Source: a virus
Virus record (IMG/VR): IMGVR_UViG_3300046450_002833
Coordinates: 1-49,448 of that record
Strand: one strand, 5' to 3'
DNA length: 49,448 nucleotides
Below the pieces are notes generated by a model. The model was not told where the DNA came from. It searched no databases and saw only the letters and a program-made list of their open reading frames with translations. Made by a program: the position numbers and the translations under genes. Below, one piece after another: positions 15,812-27,319 of this stretch; positions within the stretch are counted from its first letter, which is position 1; each line of letters starts with the position of its first letter.

Positions 15812-16570
15812 ATGCAACCTTTATTTAAGTCTCATTATAGCGTGGGGAAAAGCATCCTCACTCTCACTCCTCCCGGGGCGACCAAGGAGGGATCTTCGGA
15901 TTCTATTTTTGAAATAGCTCAAGAAGAAGATCTCAAGACTGTGATCCTAGTAGAGGACGCTCCAATTGGCTTCTTGGAAGCTAAGAACAATTCGGAGAGT
16001 TTAGGTATTCAGCTAATCTTTGGATTGAGATTTGAGATTTCGTCTCTTTCAAAATCAGAGAAAGGGGACGACTCTATACATAAAATAATTATCTTCTCAA
16101 AGGATGACGAAGGCTGCACTCTTTTAAATAAAATTTACAGCAAAATTAATTGCGAGTTCAATGGGATTGGGAATTGCAAATTGCTAAAAGATTTATGGAG
16201 CGAGGATCATCTCAAATTAGCCGTGCCCTTTTATGATTCCTTCTTGCATCGCAACAGCTTGACTTTCGGAAACTGCATTCCAGATTTCTCTTTTTGTAGT
16301 CCAACTTTTTTTATTGAAGATAACGGTTTGCCGTTTGATAATCTTCTTAAATCTAAAGTTTTAAAATTTTGCGATGAAAATGGTTTTTTAAACGAAGAAG
16401 CTAAAACGATTTATTATAAATCCCGAAAAGATGTCGAAGCGTTTCAGACTTATAAATGCATATGCAATCGTTCCTTTGGAAGGAAGCGCTCTTTATCAAA
16501 TCCCGGCTTAGATCATTTAGGTAGTAGAGAATTTTGTATTGAAAGTTGGAAGGAGTATGTAAATGAATAA
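15812..16570 (+). CDS. Free-standing PHP domain of DNA polymerase III alpha
   Basis: A 252-residue protein that aligns by eye with the N-terminal PHP domain of DnaE/PolC. It starts with FKSHYSVGKSILT (family: H.HS.YS.L.G), then TVILVEDAPIGFLEAKNN (family: ..TDHGN..G...F), QLIFGLRFEIS (family: IIG.E.YV), and ends with FQTYKCICNRSF, which matches the late '..CI.TG' region. The second His of the first motif and the TDH motif are not conserved, so metal-dependent proofreading activity is probably lost. It is followed by the exonuclease and the polymerase core, so it likely works as a structural partner in trans. Start set by the promoter. Confidence 0.72.
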   Translation: MQPLFKSHYSVGKSILTLTPPGATKEGSSDSIFEIAQEEDLKTVILVEDAPIGFLEAKNNSESLGIQLIFGLRFEISSLSKSEKGDDSIHKIIIFSKDDEGCTLLNKIYSKINCEFNGIGNCKLLKDLWSEDHLKLAVPFYDSFLHRNSLTFGNCIPDFSFCSPTFFIEDNGLPFDNLLKSKVLKFCDENGFLNEEAKTIYYKSRKDVEAFQTYKCICNRSFGRKRSLSNPGLDHLGSREFCIESWKEYVNE

Positions 16571-17201
16571 TCACTTATTAAGATTTGATAAAAATAAAAA
16601 TTACGTCATATTTGACTACGAAACCTGTGGTTTAAATCTGGCGTCGCTAAACAACAAACCTTGGCAGTTAGCTTATTTAGTAATAAAAAACGACGAAATA
16701 ATAGAGAAGAATGATTTTTATTTAAAATGGGACAGTCTTCCAATATCTGACGACGCAAAAAGGATCACAGGCTTTAAAGAAAGTGTTTATAAAAAAAGAG
16801 CGGTAGACCCTCTGAGGGTTTTAGAGGACTTTGACAAGTATCTTTATGATGATAGCTTCTACGTGGTTGGTCATAATATAATTGGGTTTGACGTTTATAT
16901 ACATAATATCCACAGAATATTATGCGGGAAGAGTTCTGACTATTCCTACATGGATAGAACTATAGATACAAACTGCCTAGCTAGAGCTAAGAAAGAAGGC
17001 ATAGATCTTAACGGCTCAGATTTCTTATCTTGGCAATATAAACTTCAAAACTTCAGGAAAAAGGGTTTGAAAACCAGTTTGAAACAGTTATGCGTGGATT
17101 ATAGTATAGATTTCGACGAGGGAAAACTTCACGATGCCCTTTATGATATATTTAAAAATTACCAAGTATTTAAAAAACTATTGTGGGAGGTAGAAGTTTA
17201 A
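16563..17201 (+). CDS. DnaQ-like 3'-5' exonuclease (DEDDh)
   Basis: A 212-residue exonuclease. Motif I is IFDYETCG with D18 and E20. Motif II lies in VVGHNIIGFDVYIHN. Motif III is KLHDALYDI, giving the His-Asp pair of the DEDDh class. It is the proofreading subunit expected for a DnaE-type polymerase and lies between the PHP gene (8-base overlap) and the polymerase gene (one base apart). This order mirrors PolC, where the exonuclease is inserted in the PHP domain. Confidence 0.88.
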   Translation: MNNHLLRFDKNKNYVIFDYETCGLNLASLNNKPWQLAYLVIKNDEIIEKNDFYLKWDSLPISDDAKRITGFKESVYKKRAVDPLRVLEDFDKYLYDDSFYVVGHNIIGFDVYIHNIHRILCGKSSDYSYMDRTIDTNCLARAKKEGIDLNGSDFLSWQYKLQNFRKKGLKTSLKQLCVDYSIDFDEGKLHDALYDIFKNYQVFKKLLWEVEV

Positions 17202-17202
17202 T

Positions 17203-19758
17203 ATGAAAAGTTTCATTGAAGATTTTAAGGCTTATAATAATTGCGTTCCGCCGGGAGTTAGGCTTCCTGAGATTAAAATAGAAAAGAGGCATTACAAGGA
17301 ATTGTCCATAAAAGAAGGTTGCTCTAATTTTGATTTTTTAAAACACTTATGCAAGAAAGGCTTAAAGGAAAAGGGGATTAATGAATTCTGTAATAAAAAG
17401 TTATACATTTCAAGGCTCAAGATGGAGCTTGACACACTTAACGATTTGGGCTTCGTTGATTATATTCTTCTCAACTGGGATATTCTTAATTATTGCCATG
17501 AGAATGACATACCAGTTGGTCCGGGACGGGGTTCTGCGGCTGGTTCGTTAGTCCTTTTTCTAATTGGAGTTACTGACGTTGATTCCGTTAGGTATGAATT
17601 ATTTTTTGAGAGGTTTGTGTCTAAGAGTAGAGCTAAAAAAACCATTAAAGATGGGGTGACATATCTAGACGGCAGCTTGCTTGCTGACGTGGACAATGAC
17701 ATAGCTTATGAGCATAGGCAGAAAGTTATAGAATATATTGAACAGAAACACCCATCTAGAACTTGTAAAATATTAACGCTGAATACATTAAGTGGAAAAC
17801 TATGCATTAAAGAATGCGGAAAGATAGTGGGAGAAAAAGCCGAACAGGATGTTAACGCTGTCAGCGATATGATTCCTAAAAAGTTTGGTAAAATCTCACC
17901 CCTGAGCGAAGCTTACGAGGAAAGTCCTAGATTCAAGGAGTGGGCTGACGAAAATGATTTTATCTATTTGATAGCTAAAAAAATAGAAGGTTTAAACAAA
18001 AACACAGGAGTTCATCCCTCTGGAATAGCTATCGCGTACCAAGAGATTTCGGAAATATGTCCAGTTCAATTAGCTAACGATGGATCTTTCGTAACTGGGT
18101 ACGACATGAACTGGGTTTCGGAGCTTATGGTGAAATTTGATATCCTAGGTTTGAGGACTCTGAGTGTTATTTATGACGTTTGTAACGATTTAAATATTAA
18201 TATTTATGATGTAGATTTGGACGATCCTGAAATATACAAACCTCTATCTAACGAATTTAGATGTCCTCAAGGATTATTTCAAATTGAAGCTGATACCAAC
18301 TTTAGAGTTTGCAGGAAAGTTAAACCCAAGAGCTTGGAGGAGTTAAGTGCGGTGATAGCAATTGCCAGGCCTGGTGCGTTGGAGTTTTTGGATAGCTATT
18401 CGAGTTATATTGAATCTGGAGAGCGTCAAAATATACATGATTTCTTTAACGATATACTTGATTATACCGGAGGGATACCCCTCTATCAGGAACAATTAAT
18501 GAAGATGGCTGTCAAGGTAGGCTTCACACTTGATGAAGCTGAACAATTAAGAAGAATAGTTGGTAAGAAAAAAGTGGACCAGATGCCTGCTTGGAAAATT
18601 AAGATTGAGCAAAAAATTTCTGAAAACAAAATACCGGAAGACGTTGGAGATATCCTATGGAAGGTTGCTGAAGATAGTGCGAATTACTCGTTTAATAAGA
18701 GTCATTCAATAGCTTATGCAACTCTTTCAGCTTGGACAACTTACTTAAAATTCAAATATCCCCAGCAATTCTTCTTAAGCTTGTTAAAAATGACCAAGTT
18801 TGAACCATCTCCTCAAGAGGAGATAAATAGCATAACTCAAGAACTTTCCTTCTTTGACATGAAATTGCTTCCTCCGGACCTAGGTTTATCAAATATGGAC
18901 TTTTCGAAAGAGGGTTGCAATATAAGATTTGGCTTAAATAGTATTAAAGGTGTCAGTGAGAAGTCCTTAAACGCTTTGAGAAGTTTTAGGAAATCTAAAA
19001 ATCCCAATAAGTTTGATATATTCGTTTCAGCTAAGCAGGCCGGACTCAACATTGGAATACTGTCGGCATTAATACAGGCTGGAGCTTTATCCTCCAAGGA
19101 TTCAAGATCCCTAACCGTCTTAGAAGCTCAGTCTTTCAATTTATTAACTGATAGGGAGAAGCGAAACGTTATGATATTTGGCGAAAGGCACGAGTATAGG
19201 CTTTTGGACATTATAGCTGCTGCTAAAGAAGGCTTGATAGCTGACGATGGAAAATTATTAATGAAAGAGTCTAGATTTGAGACTTTTAGAAAAAAATATG
19301 TCAAATACAAGGGTATATACCTTCAAAATAAAAAGTTTGAGAAATTTGCTAGCTGGTATTTTGAGAAACAGTTATTAGGATACAGTTACAGTTACAAATT
19401 AAAAAATGTATTCAAAGATAGTGGAGAGCTTTACGATTCCTTAAGGTATTATTCAATGCCTCAGGGAGATCGTGGTAAATTCATTGGAGTTGTTGAAGAG
19501 TCCTTTAGAAGCACTAGTAGAAATGGGAATAAGTATTTAAAATTGTTAATATCGGATGAGTATGGAAAGTACGGGGCGATGATGTGTGATAATAGGAGGG
19601 GCAGCAAGTTCTCAGAATACATAAACGCAGGAAATAAACCTCCAGAGAAGAACGATATAATCTCATTAACTGGAAGTAAAGGTGACGATATACTTTTTAT
19701 TGATAATATTTCAAAATTGAATGAGAAAATATTCATGAAATTAAGTGACGTTAAATAA
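17203..19758 (+). CDS. dnaE: DNA polymerase III alpha core, lacking the PHP domain
   Basis: An 851-residue C-family replicative polymerase. It begins in the linker after the PHP domain and has the palm signature DIPVGPGRGSAAGSLV. The catalytic acids are D162 and D164 in ADVDND (DnaE: PDIDID) and D313 in KFDILGL. The finger region has IARPGALEF and LYQEQLMKM, followed by NYSFNKSHSIAYA. A helix-hairpin-helix (GLNSIKGVSEKSL) and a late OB fold (GKFIGVVEESFR...KYLKLLISDEYG) are present. All three catalytic acids are kept. DnaE proteins are usually about 1,100-1,200 residues; the missing part corresponds to the separate PHP gene two positions upstream. A clamp and clamp loader are not seen in the window. 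Confidence 0.93.
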   Translation: MKSFIEDFKAYNNCVPPGVRLPEIKIEKRHYKELSIKEGCSNFDFLKHLCKKGLKEKGINEFCNKKLYISRLKMELDTLNDLGFVDYILLNWDILNYCHENDIPVGPGRGSAAGSLVLFLIGVTDVDSVRYELFFERFVSKSRAKKTIKDGVTYLDGSLLADVDNDIAYEHRQKVIEYIEQKHPSRTCKILTLNTLSGKLCIKECGKIVGEKAEQDVNAVSDMIPKKFGKISPLSEAYEESPRFKEWADENDFIYLIAKKIEGLNKNTGVHPSGIAIAYQEISEICPVQLANDGSFVTGYDMNWVSELMVKFDILGLRTLSVIYDVCNDLNINIYDVDLDDPEIYKPLSNEFRCPQGLFQIEADTNFRVCRKVKPKSLEELSAVIAIARPGALEFLDSYSSYIESGERQNIHDFFNDILDYTGGIPLYQEQLMKMAVKVGFTLDEAEQLRRIVGKKKVDQMPAWKIKIEQKISENKIPEDVGDILWKVAEDSANYSFNKSHSIAYATLSAWTTYLKFKYPQQFFLSLLKMTKFEPSPQEEINSITQELSFFDMKLLPPDLGLSNMDFSKEGCNIRFGLNSIKGVSEKSLNALRSFRKSKNPNKFDIFVSAKQAGLNIGILSALIQAGALSSKDSRSLTVLEAQSFNLLTDREKRNVMIFGERHEYRLLDIIAAAKEGLIADDGKLLMKESRFETFRKKYVKYKGIYLQNKKFEKFASWYFEKQLLGYSYSYKLKNVFKDSGELYDSLRYYSMPQGDRGKFIGVVEESFRSTSRNGNKYLKLLISDEYGKYGAMMCDNRRGSKFSEYINAGNKPPEKNDIISLTGSKGDDILFIDNISKLNEKIFMKLSDVK

Positions 19759-19759
19759 C

Positions 19760-22234
19760 ATGGAAGCTTTACCAAATTTCACTCCTAGAGTTCAGCAAGC
19801 TATTAAGTTAGCTAAAGAACAGGCGGTAAAATCCAAAAATAGCTCAGTTAAGCCTGTGCATTTATTACTTGGCATTTTTAAAGTTCAGAACTCCTTGTTA
19901 GCTGAAGCTGTCGAAGATCCAGAGAATTTCGATGACGATTATTTTAATGAATATTTAAAACCTAATGTAAATTTCAACCCTGAGCAGATAACTTTTTCTA
20001 AAAGTTTCAAAAGCGTATTGAGAAAGTCCGCTGAACTTGCTGAGTTTTATAGTCACGCTTACGTAGGGGTAGAGCATGTTTTAATAAGCTTGTTAGAAAC
20101 TAAAGGTTTGTCTCATGTACTTGAAGAGTACAATTTGGACTGTGACGCAATTTCTCAACGGATAAGGTCTACCCTTGAGGGCGACTCTGTAGACAGGATG
20201 GTTGATGTTAAAAAAGCTAAAAAGAATAGGCGTTTAAAGTCCGCAAAGGATGCGGGTCCACATATCCCTCCCTCAAATAGTGAAAAATTCCTATCTAAAT
20301 ACTCTGTAAACTTTACGGATCTTGCTGCTTCTGGTAAATTTGACAAAGTAGTCTGTAGGGATGAATCTATATCTGAAGTTGTTGAAATCTTATGCAGGAG
20401 AACTAAAAACAACCCAATAATACTTGGTGAAGCTGGAGTGGGTAAAACTGCCATTATCGAAGGTTTGTCTCAAAGAATAATCAACGGAGAAGTTTCTGAT
20501 TTTCTTCTAGGTAAGCAGGTGTACGCTTTAAATTTAAGCCATTTAGTTGCTGGTACTAAATATAGGGGGCAATTCGAGGAGCGATTAAAGGGGGTTATAG
20601 ATGAGATTAAAAAAGACGAAAATAATATTTTATTTATAGATGAAATACACACCTTAATTGGCGCGGGAAGCGCCGAAGGAAGCATGGATGCTGCAAACAT
20701 GCTTAAGCCTATGCTCGCTAGAGGTGAAATTAGATGTATTGGCGCGACAACCTTAAAGGAGTATAAGCAATCTATATCTAAAGATGGCGCTCTAGCTAGA
20801 AGGTTTCAGTCCGTCATTATAGATGAGCCTTCAACTAAGGAGTGTTATGAAATTTTGCTTAATATAAGCGATCAGTACGAATCTTTTCATAAAATTAAAT
20901 ATAGGAAAAACGCCCTAAAAGCTTCAGTAGACTTGAGCAGTAGGTACTTGACAGACAGAAATCTACCAGATAAAGCCATTGACTTAATAGATGAGGCGGC
21001 GTCAAAAGTTAAAGTTAGAAATTTCAAAAGACCTAATGAAGCTAAAAGTTTAGAATCGGCCATTGAGTCTATAATGGAGCAAGAACAATTAACAACAGAT
21101 CCAGAAAGAAAGAGGGTTCTGGAGGAATGTCAAGATGAATTATTCGAGAAGTATCAAGTCATCTTGGATGAATGGCAGCAGTCTATATTAGATAATACTA
21201 TATATGTAAATCGGTCTGACATTGAAGAGGTTATATCTATAAAAACCGGTATACCAATATCCATCATATCTTCTTCTGGTGAAAATAAATATTTGAATTT
21301 AAAGAAAAATTTAAACAAAGAAATTATAGGTCAGAGCGAGGCTGTTGACAAGATTTACAAATCAGTTATTAGGTTCGCTTCAGGTTTAAATAATCCATCT
21401 CAACCAACAGCTTCATTCTTATTTTTAGGTAAAACAGGGGTTGGTAAAACTTTAACCGCTAAAAAAATATCTAAATTTATCTTTGGAGGGGAGAATAGGG
21501 TTATTAAATTCGACATGAGTGAATTCTCTGAAAAAGTTAGCAGCTCAAAGTTAGTGGGAGCTTCTCCTGGTTACGTTGGTTATGATGAGGGTAGCGCATT
21601 AATAGATAAGGTTAGAAAAAGCCCTTATAGCGTAATACTATTTGATGAAATAGAAAAGGCTCATCCTGAAGTTACTCAAGTTTTACTTAAAGTTTTAGAG
21701 GAGGGGAAATTAACTGATAATTTTGGTAGGGTAGCTGATTTTAGTAATTGCTTTATCATCTTGACGGGTAATTTAGGTAGTGATATTATTGAAAAATCAG
21801 GAGCATCTTTAGGTTTCTCCCAATCCTCTTCCGAGGAAATTACTCGCGATAAAATTCTAGAAAAGTCTAAAGCTTTCTTTTCTCCCGAGTTTGTTAATAG
21901 GCTTGATGACATAATAATATTTCAAGATTTTAATGATAATGATTTTCGTAAAGTTTTTGACATTGAAATTGCCAACCTAAACAAAAGAATAAAAAATAGG
22001 AAAATAAAACTAGAGTTATCTTTAAATTTGATCAATTCCTTAATCAAGGAGGCTCAGTCTATGAACCTGGGTGCTAGACCTATTATTCACATATTAAAGG
22101 ATAAGGTAGAGCCAATTCTAGCGGAGGCGATCCTAAGGAAGAAAATATCAAGTGGTGATAGCGCCATGTTCGACATAAGTGATGACGGCGTAATTCATTT
22201 AACGCATAAAAGCTTGACGAAAAACAATATTTAA
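19760..22234 (+). CDS. clpC: ClpC-like AAA+ unfoldase
   Basis: An 824-residue Clp/Hsp100 protein. The N-domain has two Clp_N repeats (TPRVQQAIKLAKEQA, KSVLRKSAELAE). D1 has Walker A GEAGVGKT at 223-230 and Walker B ILFIDEIHTLIGAG. A short middle domain (about 420-480) is the ClpC rather than the long ClpB type. D2 has GKTGVGKT at 557-564 and ILFDEIEKAHPEV. The tripeptide L684-G685-F686 falls in the loop that docks on ClpP, so it should feed a host ClpP. One base separates it from the polymerase stop; ATG 19760 is preferred to an in-frame GTG at 19745. Its place in the replication operon suggests use early in infection. Confidence 0.88.
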   Translation: MEALPNFTPRVQQAIKLAKEQAVKSKNSSVKPVHLLLGIFKVQNSLLAEAVEDPENFDDDYFNEYLKPNVNFNPEQITFSKSFKSVLRKSAELAEFYSHAYVGVEHVLISLLETKGLSHVLEEYNLDCDAISQRIRSTLEGDSVDRMVDVKKAKKNRRLKSAKDAGPHIPPSNSEKFLSKYSVNFTDLAASGKFDKVVCRDESISEVVEILCRRTKNNPIILGEAGVGKTAIIEGLSQRIINGEVSDFLLGKQVYALNLSHLVAGTKYRGQFEERLKGVIDEIKKDENNILFIDEIHTLIGAGSAEGSMDAANMLKPMLARGEIRCIGATTLKEYKQSISKDGALARRFQSVIIDEPSTKECYEILLNISDQYESFHKIKYRKNALKASVDLSSRYLTDRNLPDKAIDLIDEAASKVKVRNFKRPNEAKSLESAIESIMEQEQLTTDPERKRVLEECQDELFEKYQVILDEWQQSILDNTIYVNRSDIEEVISIKTGIPISIISSSGENKYLNLKKNLNKEIIGQSEAVDKIYKSVIRFASGLNNPSQPTASFLFLGKTGVGKTLTAKKISKFIFGGENRVIKFDMSEFSEKVSSSKLVGASPGYVGYDEGSALIDKVRKSPYSVILFDEIEKAHPEVTQVLLKVLEEGKLTDNFGRVADFSNCFIILTGNLGSDIIEKSGASLGFSQSSSEEITRDKILEKSKAFFSPEFVNRLDDIIIFQDFNDNDFRKVFDIEIANLNKRIKNRKIKLELSLNLINSLIKEAQSMNLGARPIIHILKDKVEPILAEAILRKKISSGDSAMFDISDDGVIHLTHKSLTKNNI

Positions 22235-22260: not shown

Positions 22261-22623
22261 ATGTTTACAGATAAAAAAGTGATTGTATTTGATGTTGATG
22301 ATACTATTTTAACCACTGAAAATAGAGACTACAAAAACAGTAAACCCATAAATGAGGTTATTAATGGCATGAGAGAGCTTAAATCAGAAGGTTGGCGTAT
22401 TGTTCTTCATACTTCTAGGGGCATGGGCAGAGGCAAGGGTTCCGTTAAAGGAATCGAAGAGGAAGTCCGCAAAGAAATTAATGATTTTTGCGAAAAACAT
22501 TCCGTACCTCATGATGAGATTATTATTGGCAAAACTTGGGCAACTACCTATGTTGACGACAAAGCATTAAGACCTGATGAATTTGTCAATCACTACCGAA
22601 GTCTAATAAAGGATGCGCAATGA
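22261..22623 (+). CDS. HAD-like phosphatase
   Basis: A 120-residue protein with the HAD motif I FDVDDTIL (D11 and D13), motif II LHTSRG, and late acids in TYVDDKALRP. Small HAD proteins of this layout are found in capsule and LPS gene clusters. It overlaps the next nucleotidyltransferase gene by ATGA, so a joint role in making an activated sugar or alcohol is likely. Confidence 0.75.
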   Translation: MFTDKKVIVFDVDDTILTTENRDYKNSKPINEVINGMRELKSEGWRIVLHTSRGMGRGKGSVKGIEEEVRKEINDFCEKHSVPHDEIIIGKTWATTYVDDKALRPDEFVNHYRSLIKDAQ

Positions 22624-24113
22624 TTGGAATCATTCCCTGCGCAGGAGTTGGCTCAAGATTTCACGAGTTAGGAAAATGCTACCCTAAATGTATTTTGCCC
22701 TACGAAGAAGCACCTCTTCTTGTTAAAAATGTTGAATGGATGATTAATAACGGATGCGAAAAAATTTATTTAATTACTGATCATAAACAAGATAAAATTC
22801 AAGAGACTGTATTGAATTATAAATTACCTGTAGAAATTTTAACTCCTGAAAATAAAGGTGGACTTTCTGTTTCTATCCATCGTGGGTTAAAAGAGCTTTC
22901 AAAAGATGACGAAGTTCTAATATTACTTGGTGACCTGTTGGTGAAAACTAATTTCAATATAAGCGATTGCAACTGGGTTGGCGTAATTAAAGTTTCGGAT
23001 TGGAGTCGCTGGTGTATGTTTGATGTAAAATCTAATAAATTTTATGAAAAACCGACGGTTAAGCCGAACACCGATAAAGCATTAAGTGGTGTTTATTTTT
23101 TAAAAAGCGGTATTAAATTAAGAGAGTCTATAGAAAAACAAATAGATTTAGATATTAAAGTTAATGGTGAACTCACTTTATCTAGTGCATTATCTTTAAT
23201 GAATGAGGATTTTGATTCCATCAGCCTTGACATCGTAGACTTTGGTTCAATAGATCAGTATTTAAAAAATAGAAAAATAAAAAAATCTAGAACTTTTAAC
23301 GACATTCGATTTGAGGATCATTTTGTAATTAAAAGCTCAAGCCAGAAACATAAAATTTATTTGGAATATAATTGGTACAAGTCTATCCCGAATAACTTAA
23401 AAGTTTTTACTCCAAAGATTTTAGATCATGATTTTTATCAAGAAAAATCTGAGTATACAATGGAGAAGATCAATTTACCTTCCCTGAGAGAATTGTATTT
23501 ATTTTTTGATAGATCAATTGAGACTTGGAGTAAAATTTTCAACTCATGCCTTGATGTCTATAAAAAAATGTCTAGCTACTCATATAGTTACTCCTCTTTT
23601 TCTGATATATACAAAAAGACAGAACAAAGGGTTCTCGAAGTAAAAACGAAAGAAAAGGCTTTAGTTGATGAATTTCTTAAAGATTTTTATGAAATTGGAA
23701 ATGAAATAGATAAAACTACGCATTTGTTTCATGGTGATTATATTTTTTCTAATTTGTTTTGGGACGAAATTAAATCTAGCATTATTATGATTGATCCCAG
23801 GGGCCAACTATTTGGCTCTAAATATTACGATTGGGCTAAATTAAAACATTCAGTTAATTACCATTATGACTTTGTCGATGGAGGGCTCTATGCGCTAAAT
23901 GATGGTAAATATCAACTATTTAATGATGGTTGCAGTCACATCGAAAATATTTTTAATCAGATAGAGGAGAAGCTTTTTACAGACCAAGAGAGGCACTATT
24001 TGAAAATTCTAACAGCATCTCTTTTTATTTCTGAGATTCCTTTGCATTATCATAATAGAGAAAATCAAGAAATATACTTTAAAATATTTAAGAATATATA
24101 TGAAAACTTATAA
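22620..24113 (+). CDS. Nucleotidyltransferase fused to a choline kinase/APH-like kinase
   Basis: A 497-residue fusion. The N-terminal half (1-220) is a MobA/GlmU-like NTP transferase with CAGVGSRF at 7-14, KCYPKCILPY and the metal-binding LLGDLL. The C-terminal half (about 240-497) resembles aminoglycoside/choline kinases: HGDYIFSN with H371, D373 and N378, then MIDPRG. LicC and LicA do these two steps as separate enzymes for phosphocholine; a comparable two-step activation of a sugar or alcohol is inferred here. Overlaps on both sides link it to the HAD gene and the following transferase-like gene. Confidence 0.72.
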   Translation: MIGIIPCAGVGSRFHELGKCYPKCILPYEEAPLLVKNVEWMINNGCEKIYLITDHKQDKIQETVLNYKLPVEILTPENKGGLSVSIHRGLKELSKDDEVLILLGDLLVKTNFNISDCNWVGVIKVSDWSRWCMFDVKSNKFYEKPTVKPNTDKALSGVYFLKSGIKLRESIEKQIDLDIKVNGELTLSSALSLMNEDFDSISLDIVDFGSIDQYLKNRKIKKSRTFNDIRFEDHFVIKSSSQKHKIYLEYNWYKSIPNNLKVFTPKILDHDFYQEKSEYTMEKINLPSLRELYLFFDRSIETWSKIFNSCLDVYKKMSSYSYSYSSFSDIYKKTEQRVLEVKTKEKALVDEFLKDFYEIGNEIDKTTHLFHGDYIFSNLFWDEIKSSIIMIDPRGQLFGSKYYDWAKLKHSVNYHYDFVDGGLYALNDGKYQLFNDGCSHIENIFNQIEEKLFTDQERHYLKILTASLFISEIPLHYHNRENQEIYFKIFKNIYENL

Positions 24114-24894
24114 ATTAATATGCTCGATTAACGCTTATCAAGAAAATGCCTTGAATCTTTTAATCGATAATTTCAAAGAACATATTGAAGAAGATTTTAT
24201 TCTTATTATTAATTGCTCTACTGATCTGCACGGGAAATTACAAAGCTCCGACCTTTTAGAATCAAATAAAAATATCATACTTAATCCCAAACCATTCGAC
24301 AAGGCAAGGTATCACGGATCACTAACAAGAGGAATTGTATCCAACATTAACTTTGCTTTAAATACTTTTAAAAATTGGGAACAGTTAATAATTTTAAGTA
24401 ATTGTTATTTTTTTGAAAAAAATATTAATCTCAAATTAATAAATGAAGCTCAACAAGAACTACTTAATAGAGCTTCTGATTTTTGGCTAAACAAAGGGGT
24501 CCATCAAGAATATACTTGTGGCCCTGCACCAGCGTTTATCCCTAGTAAGTATTTAGTCCGAGAGCAGCCAGATGAAGGATTTTTTTGGCCAGAATGGAAA
24601 GGGACGAAATTAGCTAAATATTTTTGGGATAAACCTTCTTGGTGTGGAAAGCATGAAGGGTTGGTATTCAATAGGGAGTGCTGTTCTTATATATCAAGAT
24701 TTCTCAAAAGGGAAAAAGATATAACTGAAGACCTTTTTAATTTTAATTCAAATGTAGAAGAATTTTCCTTGCATACTCTAGCTGTTAATAGTGGCGGTAA
24801 ATATGGTCATTTAAGTTTTGATAGATTAAATGAATTCACATATGTTTATCGCAAACCAAAAGATGAAATTTATTTGACTGGTACATATACTTGA
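24100..24894 (+). CDS. Glycosyltransferase-like protein
   Basis: A 264-residue protein starting LICSINAYQENALNLLIDNF, with an early strand FILIINCSTD and the phrase LIILSNCYFF where a nucleotide-sugar site would be. The general shape recalls core-2/I-branching transferases, but no DxD motif is clear. It overlaps the kinase gene by 14 bases, and its end abuts the tmRNA promoter (TTGACA overlaps the last codons). Confidence 0.45.
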   Translation: MKTYKLICSINAYQENALNLLIDNFKEHIEEDFILIINCSTDLHGKLQSSDLLESNKNIILNPKPFDKARYHGSLTRGIVSNINFALNTFKNWEQLIILSNCYFFEKNINLKLINEAQQELLNRASDFWLNKGVHQEYTCGPAPAFIPSKYLVREQPDEGFFWPEWKGTKLAKYFWDKPSWCGKHEGLVFNRECCSYISRFLKREKDITEDLFNFNSNVEEFSLHTLAVNSGGKYGHLSFDRLNEFTYVYRKPKDEIYLTGTYT

Positions 24895-24919
24895 CATTTA
24901 GAAGTCTTTCGTGTAATAT
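24891..24919 (+). promoter_or_regulatory. Promoter of the tmRNA gene
   Basis: TTGACA, 17 bp, TAATAT. Transcription would start near 24926, about 20 bases before the mature 5' end at 24946, leaving a short leader for RNase P to remove. Confidence 0.75.
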
Positions 24920-24945: not shown

Positions 24946-25394
24946 GGGGGTGTAATGGATTCGACTAGGGTTGGATTCGTTCACTGCAAGTGGGAGAAGC
25001 ATCAGGCTCCCTAAAAAGATGCAAAAGCTATATTTGGCGAAGGCTATAATAGCATAGAGGAGCTTCTTGAAGCCGCTCGTGAGGAGTACGCAGTCTCTCA
25101 ATTAATTGAGGACGCCACTGCTCTCTACGAGGCTGAAGAGCTTCCAATGGCAGCTTAGAGCTGTCACCTCTACACTCTTGACGCAGATAAAGGGATGTAG
25201 GGGTCATCTATCTGCAAAAACAGATAAAAGTTTACCTGTCGCACAAACTGAGTCCACTGAGTATATCGGGGGTAAATAATTGAAACAGGGAGTTGGATGT
25301 TAATATCAAAACTATAAAAAAAATTAACTAAACTTGTAGATGTGAGCGCTTGAAGATACTTGGGACGCGGGTTCAATTCCCGCCACCTCCACCA
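24946..25394 (+). ncRNA. ssrA: tmRNA (SsrA) with an unusually long tag reading frame
   Basis: The 5' end GGGGGTG pairs with CACCTCC before the encoded ACCA at 25391-25394. The 5' domain has the conserved TGGATTCGAC, and the 3' domain has GGACGCGGGTTCAATTCCCG as the T arm. An H-type pseudoknot PK1 is clear: GGGAG (24992-24996) with CTCCC (25007-25011), and GCATC (24999-25003) with GATGC (25018-25022). The tag frame is best read from GGC at 25036, preceded by ATATTT (compare ATAGTC in E. coli), to TAG at 25156-25158. That is 40 codons ending in LPMAA, with 11 acidic and 1 basic residue. The molecule is about 449 bases, longer than the usual 350-400. It releases stalled ribosomes and marks the product for proteolysis. 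Confidence 0.95.
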
Positions 25395-25447: not shown

Positions 25448-25987
25448 ATGAGCAACCTACTATTCAAAACAAAAACCTACTTAGTAGGTCATATGCAATA
25501 CCTTAGCGGTAGAGACTGGAGAGCTGAAGTCACTGAAAAACTAAGTTCTTTATCGATAACTTGCTTCAACCCTTATAATAAACCCTTCATGAAGGACGTT
25601 GAGGAAGACGAGGCCACTCGAGTAGAGATGGAGACTTGGATGAAAACGAAACAGTACGACAGAGTTACTGATAGAATGAAAACTGTGCGCGCTTACGATC
25701 TCAATCTAGTAGACCGTTCTGATTTTATAATTGCGCACTTAGTTCCGGACGTTGCGAGTTGGGGGTCTGCAGAGGAAATTGTGACGGCGGTTCGTATGAA
25801 GAAGCCTGTCTTCGTCAGCATGGAGGGTGGAAAGTCAAAGACTCCGTTATGGATGTTAGGAATGTTCCCTCATAAATATATTTATAATAACCTTGACGAA
25901 ATTATTGAAATGCTGTATGCTATAGATAGTGGAACTAAAACAATAGACTCTGATAGGTGGAGATTACTAAGAAAGGAATTTAGATAA
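25448..25987 (+). CDS. Nucleoside 2-deoxyribosyltransferase-like protein
   Basis: A 179-residue protein with the fold pattern of this family: KTYLVGHMQYLSGRDWR at the start (the [AG]G.M......WR loop that binds substrate), RAYDLNLVDRSDFIIAHL in the middle, and WGSAEEIVTAVRMKKPVFV (G-x-x-x-E) near 125-145. Family members exchange or hydrolyse bases of deoxynucleosides. In a phage this could recycle host nucleotides. It leads an overlapping run with two small genes and the IMPDH/GMPR gene. Confidence 0.72.
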   Translation: MSNLLFKTKTYLVGHMQYLSGRDWRAEVTEKLSSLSITCFNPYNKPFMKDVEEDEATRVEMETWMKTKQYDRVTDRMKTVRAYDLNLVDRSDFIIAHLVPDVASWGSAEEIVTAVRMKKPVFVSMEGGKSKTPLWMLGMFPHKYIYNNLDEIIEMLYAIDSGTKTIDSDRWRLLRKEFR

Positions 25988-26058
25988 TGAATGAATTATT
26001 TATAGCTATTGGTTATGTCGCACTTTGTCTTTATGTAGCCTACCGCCACATGTCATGA
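25987..26058 (+). CDS. Very small membrane peptide
   Basis: A 23-residue frame, almost all one hydrophobic helix (LFIAIGYVALCLYVAY). It starts one base inside the previous stop codon (TAATG) and ends in an ATGA overlap with the next gene. The double overlap is the main support. Confidence 0.45.
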   Translation: MNELFIAIGYVALCLYVAYRHMS

Positions 26059-26309
26059 TTTTAATAGAAAAAGCTGAAAATTTAAATTTCACCTTTGGTT
26101 TTAACCAGACTCAGGACTTCATCCTTGATGGTCTGGAGAAAGCTTTTATAGAAAAATATGGTCGAGATCTTTTATCTAAGGCTAGCTTAGTGATTATTAT
26201 TGAGAATGAAAATTTCTACCATGTTGTAAGGGATAAATATTACACTAGAATTAGTGGGGAGTTTATTGATAATTTATGTGGAGACGTGCTTAAAAACTTA
26301 AAAATATGA
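26055..26309 (+). CDS. Hypothetical protein
   Basis: An 84-residue protein, alpha/beta in pattern, not recognised. ATG at 26055 is taken instead of an upstream in-frame start because it forms an ATGA overlap; it ends with another ATGA into the IMPDH/GMPR gene. It is therefore translationally coupled on both sides. Confidence 0.55.
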   Translation: MILIEKAENLNFTFGFNQTQDFILDGLEKAFIEKYGRDLLSKASLVIIIENENFYHVVRDKYYTRISGEFIDNLCGDVLKNLKI

Positions 26310-27319
26310 GTAAATATTTAAAGTATTCCGATGTAAACTTGGTTCCTAATTTTTCCATTGTTAGGTCTAGGTCTGATTGTGATGTTTCCAAGGAAATAGG
26401 AGGTAAAAAGTTCAAACTTCCAGTTATACCTTCCAATATGAAGTCTGTTATAGATGTGAGGCATTGCAAATGGATGAGTGATAATGATTATTTCTACATC
26501 ATGCATAGATTTGATGTTGATATTCAAAAATTCATAGAAGAGGCTAACGAGGAAAATTGGAAAACTGTCTCAATAAGTCTTGGCGTAAAGGGTGCGGACA
26601 AGGATATTATAAAAAGAATTAGGAATTCTAAATCTAGAGTTGACTATATAACCATTGATATTGCTCATGGGCATTGCGAATCAATGAAGGAAATGATTGA
26701 GATTTGCAAGTCAAGCTTAGAAAACGTTTGTATTATTGCTGGCAATGTGGCGAAGCCAGAGGCTGTAGCTGATCTTTCTGCGTGGGGAGCTGATTATGTT
26801 AAAGTGGGGATTGGGCAGGGTAGCCCTTGCACCACAAAGGACAAGACTGGTTTTACAATTCCTATGTTCACCTGCGTTGAGTCCTGCTCAAAAGTTTTAT
26901 TTGACAAAGACGATGGCTTCATGTTCTCAAACGCTTCATTAAAGGATGATTACAAACTGCCTGAAAAAGTTAAAATCATTGCGGATGGAGGGGTTTGTTG
27001 TAATGGAGACGCGGCCAAAGCCTTGGTTGCGGGAGCGGACTTAGTTATGGCTGGAGGCTTATTTGCATGCTGTTCTGACAGTCCTTCTCACTCTATTGAG
27101 ATTGATGGTATGCTTCACAAGGCTTATTACGGGTCGGCTAGCTTTGAGAATAAAAAAACAAGAACCCACGTAGAGGGCGCTCTAAGGAACATTCCCTCCT
27201 GCGGAATGAACTTCAAAACCAAGCTTATTGAAATTGATGAAGATTTAAAAAGCGCTGTAAGCTATTCGGGAGGCAAAAACCTACTAAGTCTTCAAGATGT
27301 AAAGTATATTAAAGTATGA
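26306..27319 (+). CDS. IMP dehydrogenase/GMP reductase family enzyme without CBS domains
   Basis: A 337-residue TIM-barrel enzyme. The catalytic loop GIGQGSPCTTKDKTG places the nucleophile at C175. IADGGVCCNGDAAKALVAGADLVMAGG is the phosphate-binding part, cut here by context only, and YYGSASFENKK precedes the flap. The length and absence of CBS domains fit GMP reductase, but the EYRASEG phrase of that enzyme is missing and the HVEGALRNIP segment looks nearer to IMP dehydrogenase. Either way it acts at the IMP/GMP branch of purine metabolism. Confidence 0.82.
   Translation: MSKYLKYSDVNLVPNFSIVRSRSDCDVSKEIGGKKFKLPVIPSNMKSVIDVRHCKWMSDNDYFYIMHRFDVDIQKFIEEANEENWKTVSISLGVKGADKDIIKRIRNSKSRVDYITIDIAHGHCESMKEMIEICKSSLENVCIIAGNVAKPEAVADLSAWGADYVKVGIGQGSPCTTKDKTGFTIPMFTCVESCSKVLFDKDDGFMFSNASLKDDYKLPEKVKIIADGGVCCNGDAAKALVAGADLVMAGGLFACCSDSPSHSIEIDGMLHKAYYGSASFENKKTRTHVEGALRNIPSCGMNFKTKLIEIDEDLKSAVSYSGGKNLLSLQDVKYIKV

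Follow-up and report, generated by a model that had tools for sequence, protein, structure and literature searches.

A phage one-piece tmRNA with a 40-residue acidic tag, beyond the published length range and in a conserved, apparently exchanged tag family

What is new in the phage DNA analyzed here is a tmRNA tag of 40 residues, beyond the published range of tag lengths, in a conserved and apparently exchanged family of acidic tags. In bacteria, tmRNA rescues stalled ribosomes and marks the unfinished proteins on them, and its tags are short degrons. The window, which is the whole 49,448-base IMG/VR virus record, contains replication genes for a DnaB-like helicase, a primase, an exonuclease and DNA polymerase III alpha. 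The favored reading, to which we give a probability of roughly 0.75, is that the gene specifies a working phage tmRNA which would rely on host SmpB and alanine charging, add an acidic helix with a hydrophobic C-terminal tail, and send the product to destruction by a Clp-family protease.

The earlier note had put known tags mostly at 8-35 residues and considered this one longer. The range of 8-35 residues is given in a review and describes known members rather than a definition (PMC8012679); the 40 residues of the window tag exceed it. The commonest tag length is 10 in a 2025 database paper (PMC11915505). The acidic tags of 40-41 residues and an unrelated basic form of 38 residues both lie above the published 8-35. 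No longer tags were found in the literature searched, a search to which the tmRNA database of 97,179 sequences did not belong.

A canonical tmRNA gene with an expanded coding part

The features of the locus are as follows.

24891..24919, plus strand: sigma-70-like promoter, TTGACA-17-TAATAT (promoter scan; consensus match only)
24946..25394, plus strand: one-piece tmRNA (ssrA) gene with encoded CCA (ARAGORN; Rfam RF00023, 123.3 bits, E 4.3e-49)
24992..25022, plus strand: pseudoknot PK1, GGGAG/CTCCC and GCATC/GATGC (read from the sequence; agrees with the Rfam alignment)
25032, plus strand: A at -4 that sets the frame, counterpart of A86 in E. coli (44 of 44 phage tmRNAs; PMC2481249)
25036..25158, plus strand: tag reading frame of 40 codons, GEGYNSIEELLEAAREEYAVSQLIEDATALYEAEELPMAA, with resume codon GGC at 25036-25038 and stop TAG at 25156-25158 (translation; relatives; third-position excess)
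25148..25166, plus strand: helix P5, TGGCAGC / GCTGTCA, whose loop contains the stop codon of the tag (hairpin comparison; covariation)
25167..25215, plus strand: pseudoknot PK2, CCTCTACA/TGTAGGGG and GCAGAT/ATCTGC (covariation)

Identical ends for the one-piece tmRNA (24946-25394) were obtained from ARAGORN and from Rfam. The covariance-model search proposed in the earlier note returned exactly this interval as a full-length match (model positions 1-374), with 123.3 bits against a gathering score of 47. The distance from the promoter to the mature 5' end is 26 nt. Both promoter hexamers are retained in the Caspian Sea strain described below (L198), as TTGACA-17-TATTAT, and the spacer has diverged.

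PK1, the acceptor stem and the T arm had been called clear, and all three were found, together with P5 and PK2. The acceptor stem and T arm were read from the sequence as GGGGGTG / CACCTCC-ACCA and GCGGGTTCAATTCCCGC. The acceptor stem is of the alanine type, with a G3-U pair, as expected for alanine charging.

The comparison set comprised 44 phage tmRNAs including that of the window; the relatives were fetched via the IMP dehydrogenase (IMPDH) gene, the DNA polymerase III gene and the acidic tag, and all are metagenomic contigs. In 43 of the 44 tmRNAs the stop codon is enclosed by a hairpin with 5 or more pairs, compared with 26% of control positions. Both sides have changed at 3 of the 7 pairs of P5, and at 5 of 8 and 1 of 6 pairs of the two PK2 stems, in which 88.8% and 99.1% of cells are paired. 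Across 18 sequences, 9 pairs of P5 and PK2 changed on both sides, a count reached in 0 of 500 shuffles, and the covariation was 0.299 versus 0.140 for shuffled alignments and 0.07-0.13 for slid controls. Rfam places P5 within the coding part of the tag; this placement is wrong, and the true P5 is at 25148-25166. The architecture of the tmRNA is canonical, and the expansion is confined to the coding part.

Reading frame of the tag

A frame of 40 codons from about 25036 to the TAG at 25156 had been proposed from the sequence. Translation confirmed that it is open, and comparison with relatives placed it. By an experimental rule, A86 fixes the frame, and the resume codon lies four bases downstream (PMC2481249). 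The A at -4 is present in all 44 phage tmRNAs, the window included, and their resume codons are GGC, GCC, GCT or GCA. The gap between PK1 and the GGC at 25036 is 13 nt. The alternative start considered in the earlier note, the GCA at 25021, overlaps the 3' arm of PK1 (GATGC, 25018-25022) and was rejected.

The chance of 40 open codons in one fixed frame is about 6% given the local dinucleotides, so openness of the tag frame by itself is weak evidence. The 40-codon frame was accepted because of the A at -4, the stop codon in the loop of the covarying P5, the closed alternative frames, and the recurrence of the tag type in eight relatives. In the window, stops interrupt the two other frames, and every relative has a stop in the +2 frame no later than the seventh codon. 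Two observations had been named as counting against the long frame, a covariance model with the resume codon well downstream and homologous tmRNAs closed in their first 25 codons. Neither was made, and the first 18-25 codons of the homologues are open and conserved.

It is extremely unlikely that the true tag is shorter. ARAGORN itself outputs 16 residues from 25108 (EDATALYEAEELPMAA), but this start lies 85 nt beyond PK1 instead of 13 nt, and the same call is made in L107, L109, L112 and L136, whose upstream codons are conserved; comparison with the relatives thus contradicts the 16-residue tag, which is a mis-call. A six-codon +1-frame tag, AKAIIA* from 25037, does end at a TAG in the window, but that stop is missing from the +1 frame of L109, L112, L136, L194 and L196, and the A at -4 points to GGC and not to the +1 frame. 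For the tmRNAs of L194 and L196, which have acidic tags of 35 residues, no gene is detected by ARAGORN.

Composition, predicted structure and conservation of the tag

The count of residues in the 40-residue tag gave 11 D/E and 1 K/R, exactly the 11 acidic and 1 basic residues claimed before, for a net charge of -10. The tag is laid out as a short linker GEGYNS, a long acidic helix and a hydrophobic tail LPMAA. The helix had been predicted in the earlier note, and AlphaFold2 likewise predicts a single helix over residues 7-35 with loose ends (mean pLDDT 86) from a run that used six relatives of the acidic family, although a helix prediction for short acidic peptides is weak evidence.

The last four residues of the tag are PMAA, not ALAA. 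The degron-like character suggested for this ending is borne out by sequence resemblance, as relatives end in LEMAA, LEMVA, LAMAA and LALAA. A small hydrophobic C-terminus is present in all 44 phage tags (LALAA, MAA, MVA, AVA, VAA, LLAA). Two blocks are invariant in the acidic tags, EGY..EL.EAA.EEY and EEL.M.A, and they would fit a two-part signal.

Codon-level conservation was calculated across the tag frame. Between the window tag and that of L107 there are 9.5 synonymous and 8.5 non-synonymous changes, with a dN/dS of 0.20; the dN/dS of the acidic-tag relatives (n=8) is 0.17-0.61. In four disjoint pairs taken together, third codon positions account for 21 of the 37 differences (p = 0.003). 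The concentration of differences at third positions indicates that the tag is under selection as a protein. Judged from these sequence comparisons, the tag is conserved under selection at the protein level. An internal duplication was considered as the origin of the window tag and was no better than shuffles (26/200).

Acidic-tag relatives and a Caspian Sea strain

The comparison with tags of related phages that the earlier note had called for revealed eight relatives that share the acidic tag type, with 34-41 residues. The tag of L107 is GEGYNTVEELLEAAREEYAVSQVIEEATALYGELEELEMAA, with 41 residues. L109, L112, L131 and L136 have acidic tags of 34 residues (GEGYYSIEELLEAA.EEYD.LVQFEQAEELEMVA), and L194 and L196 have tags of 35 residues.

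One of the eight, L198, is 97% identical to the window phage and comes from a Caspian Sea metagenome-assembled genome (MAG; origin inferred). Over the 123 nt of the tag frame, L198 differs from the window by 1 synonymous change; in the 3' RNA body, 198 of 236 columns match and 38 differ. The L198 phage contig (JAQBUS010000001.1; 49,305 bases), nearly identical to the window, lies within a bacterial MAG that belongs to a collection of species-representative genomes. In this MAG (G086), SmpB is present with an apparent dapA adjoining. No tmRNA of its own, one-piece or alpha-type, was found in G086.

Searches of annotated phages with the acidic tag as a protein query gave no match, and DNA similarity to annotated phages revealed no kin, only short matches of the T-arm end. 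A codon pattern for EELPMAA matched two contigs, neither bearing a tmRNA.

Genes around the tmRNA were also compared. In the window, clpC and the tmRNA are separated by three ORFs of 120, 497 and 264 aa (22261-24894); they are absent from L198, in which the tmRNA directly follows clpC. Directly downstream of the window tmRNA, at 25448-27319, are nucleoside deoxyribosyltransferase-like and IMP dehydrogenase/GMP reductase family genes. In six loci fetched via the IMP dehydrogenase/GMP reductase gene, the tmRNA is about 0.8-1.6 kb downstream of that gene. DNA polymerase III alpha is apparently split in the window (15812-19758), in the order of a short ORF that matches the phage polymerase profile in an N-terminal portion, an exonuclease-subunit ORF and the polymerase body.

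Tag families in the clade and their apparent exchange

The 44 phage tmRNAs carry 34 different tags, with net charges from -11 to +11. Tags of 19-21 residues, mostly basic and ending in LALAA, were found in 27 of the 44 sequences; three sequences have basic tags of 31-32 residues, and the acidic GEGY family comprises nine sequences including the window, with 34-41 residues.

Several other tag forms were observed. A second, unrelated long family, basic and of 38 residues (AKSKLINGLLDRFNPAKKVASRKVVTRKSVAHQVAAVA and kin), is present in L110, L129, L135 and L137. The basic tags of 31-32 residues in L098, L113 and L124 resemble the 20-residue tags with an internal duplication of the NRVKALGFK segment; the duplication is above shuffles in L098 and L113 and weaker in L124. 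The divergent tmRNA of L114 (record G005) has a distinct acidic tag of 33 residues, ADNTDSILAEAEHIFNNADEYLVGAEDEMLLAA, and no clear P5 at the stop.

The acidic tag family has apparently been exchanged among phages. Between phages with diverged ClpCs, the DNA of the 34-residue tag genes they share is 88-94% identical, and the tree of the tmRNA body has poor resolution. Since change counts cannot separate gain from loss, we infer such exchange rather than count it. A possible extension, offered tentatively, is that the acidic helical tag is a mobile cassette swapped among diverged phages, its helix having a function of its own as the part grasped by a particular adaptor, unfoldase or sequestering partner, and that switching between acidic and basic tags would give rescued products different fates.

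Proposed function and the phage ClpC

In the favored reading, the tmRNA would be transcribed from its own promoter and charged with alanine by the host alanyl-tRNA synthetase. Host SmpB would then carry it to ribosomes stalled on broken mRNA, which are presumably common during infection. Host SmpB is presumed because no SmpB was found in the window or the 37 related records (38 phage records, most of them fragments). Resumption at the GGC at 25036 would add alanine and 40 residues to the stalled product. The LPMAA tail would most likely be read by a Clp-family protease, either ClpXP of the host or a ClpC, from phage or host, paired with host ClpP, and the tagged product would be destroyed after this recognition. 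The conserved acidic helix is probably not just a spacer; its most likely role is to tune delivery, for instance by offering an adaptor or unfoldase a surface to dock on.

The helix could instead serve a fate other than degradation: it might keep tagged proteins soluble, sequester them, shield them from host proteases, or inhibit a host protease or adaptor. A minimal C-terminal degron does not need a long conserved acidic helix, and the charge of the tags varies widely among related phages; however, the small hydrophobic C-terminus common to all 44 tags is as in degrons, and we consider such a fate unlikely.

The earlier note had also suggested that the tag might direct products to the phage's own ClpC, whose gene is as follows.

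19745..22234, plus strand: ClpC-type double-ring AAA+ unfoldase with the ClpP-docking tripeptide LGF at residues 689-691 (PDB ClpC matches; domains)

This ATPase matches PDB ClpC with E about 1e-183 and has Clp_N, AAA, AAA_2 and D2-small domains. An acidic tag tailored to it, with ClpC passing tagged proteins to host ClpP or disaggregating them, seems improbable, about as much so as the non-degradative fate. In the window the ClpC gene lies 2.7 kb upstream of the tmRNA; in the Caspian strain, G009 and G013 it immediately precedes the tmRNA. The xGF ClpP-docking motif is kept in 34 of 35 ClpC relatives; the phage ClpC could therefore pair with host ClpP. ClpP itself is present in 3 of 38 phage records and absent from the window. 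However, ClpC relatives were found in 35 of the 38 records that bear a tmRNA, and 44 of 48 records lacking a tmRNA match have one too; many of the latter records are fragments, and some of their ClpC matches are partial. ClpC is almost as frequent without tmRNA and is therefore a clade gene, not specific evidence of tag reading. Placing the acidic label on the ClpC tree takes 5 changes, 4 of them forced by well-supported branches, and 160 of 500 shuffles are as low. The sister ClpCs of G009 and G013, both with the tmRNA directly downstream, accompany a basic tag (G009) and an acidic tag (G013). Co-evolution of ClpC and tag was rejected on this tree, the association being no better than with shuffled labels. 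A locus query with ClpC returned no loci. The suggestion of the earlier note is left unsupported, with ClpC near-universal with or without tmRNA and sister ClpCs bearing opposite tags; ClpC is a possible but unsupported reader of the tag.

A decaying or decoy ssrA copy that has lost tagging, for which the tRNA-like-domain-only tmRNA form of phage DS6A is a precedent (PMC11915505) and for which no support was found here, is very improbable in view of the intact tmRNA anatomy, the selection on the tag, the covariation and the promoter conserved in a second strain.

Comparison with known systems and significance

The window tmRNA shares with the bacterial and phage one-piece tmRNAs of RF00023 the tRNA-like domain with G3-U and CCA, PK1, the A at -4, the stop in the P5 loop, PK2 and the T arm. 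It differs from them in its acidic helix, in its tag of 40 codons rather than about 10 or 8-35, and in its 3' region from PK2 to the acceptor stem, which diverges even between close strains. The short basic tags of the same clade (such as GNKSRVKAFAFKKRELALAA) have the same resume codon context, gene architecture, and DNA polymerase III and ClpC genes; they are 19-21 residues long and end in LALAA, whereas the window tag has 40 residues, a net charge of -10 and a PMAA end. The ssrA tag of Mesoplasma florum (AANKNEENTNEVPTFMLNAGQANYAFA) is a precedent for a long tag with a dedicated protease, its own Lon (PMC9097571). That tag has 27 residues including the tRNA-borne alanine, is without an acidic helix and is read by Lon, whereas an acidic helix and a Clp protease are proposed for the window tag. 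The marine myophage Melnitz likewise carries an ssrA gene, but its tmRNA is two-piece and permuted with a glutamine riboswitch, unlike the one-piece tmRNA of the window (PMC9004378).

Automatic annotation shortens or misses long tags and may therefore under-count them: ARAGORN reported 16 of the 40 residues here and nothing for L194 and L196. Two unrelated long forms of 38-41 residues, the acidic helix and the basic AKSKLINGLLDRFNP type, have conserved protein sequences, and tmRNA tags may therefore carry more than a C-terminal degron.
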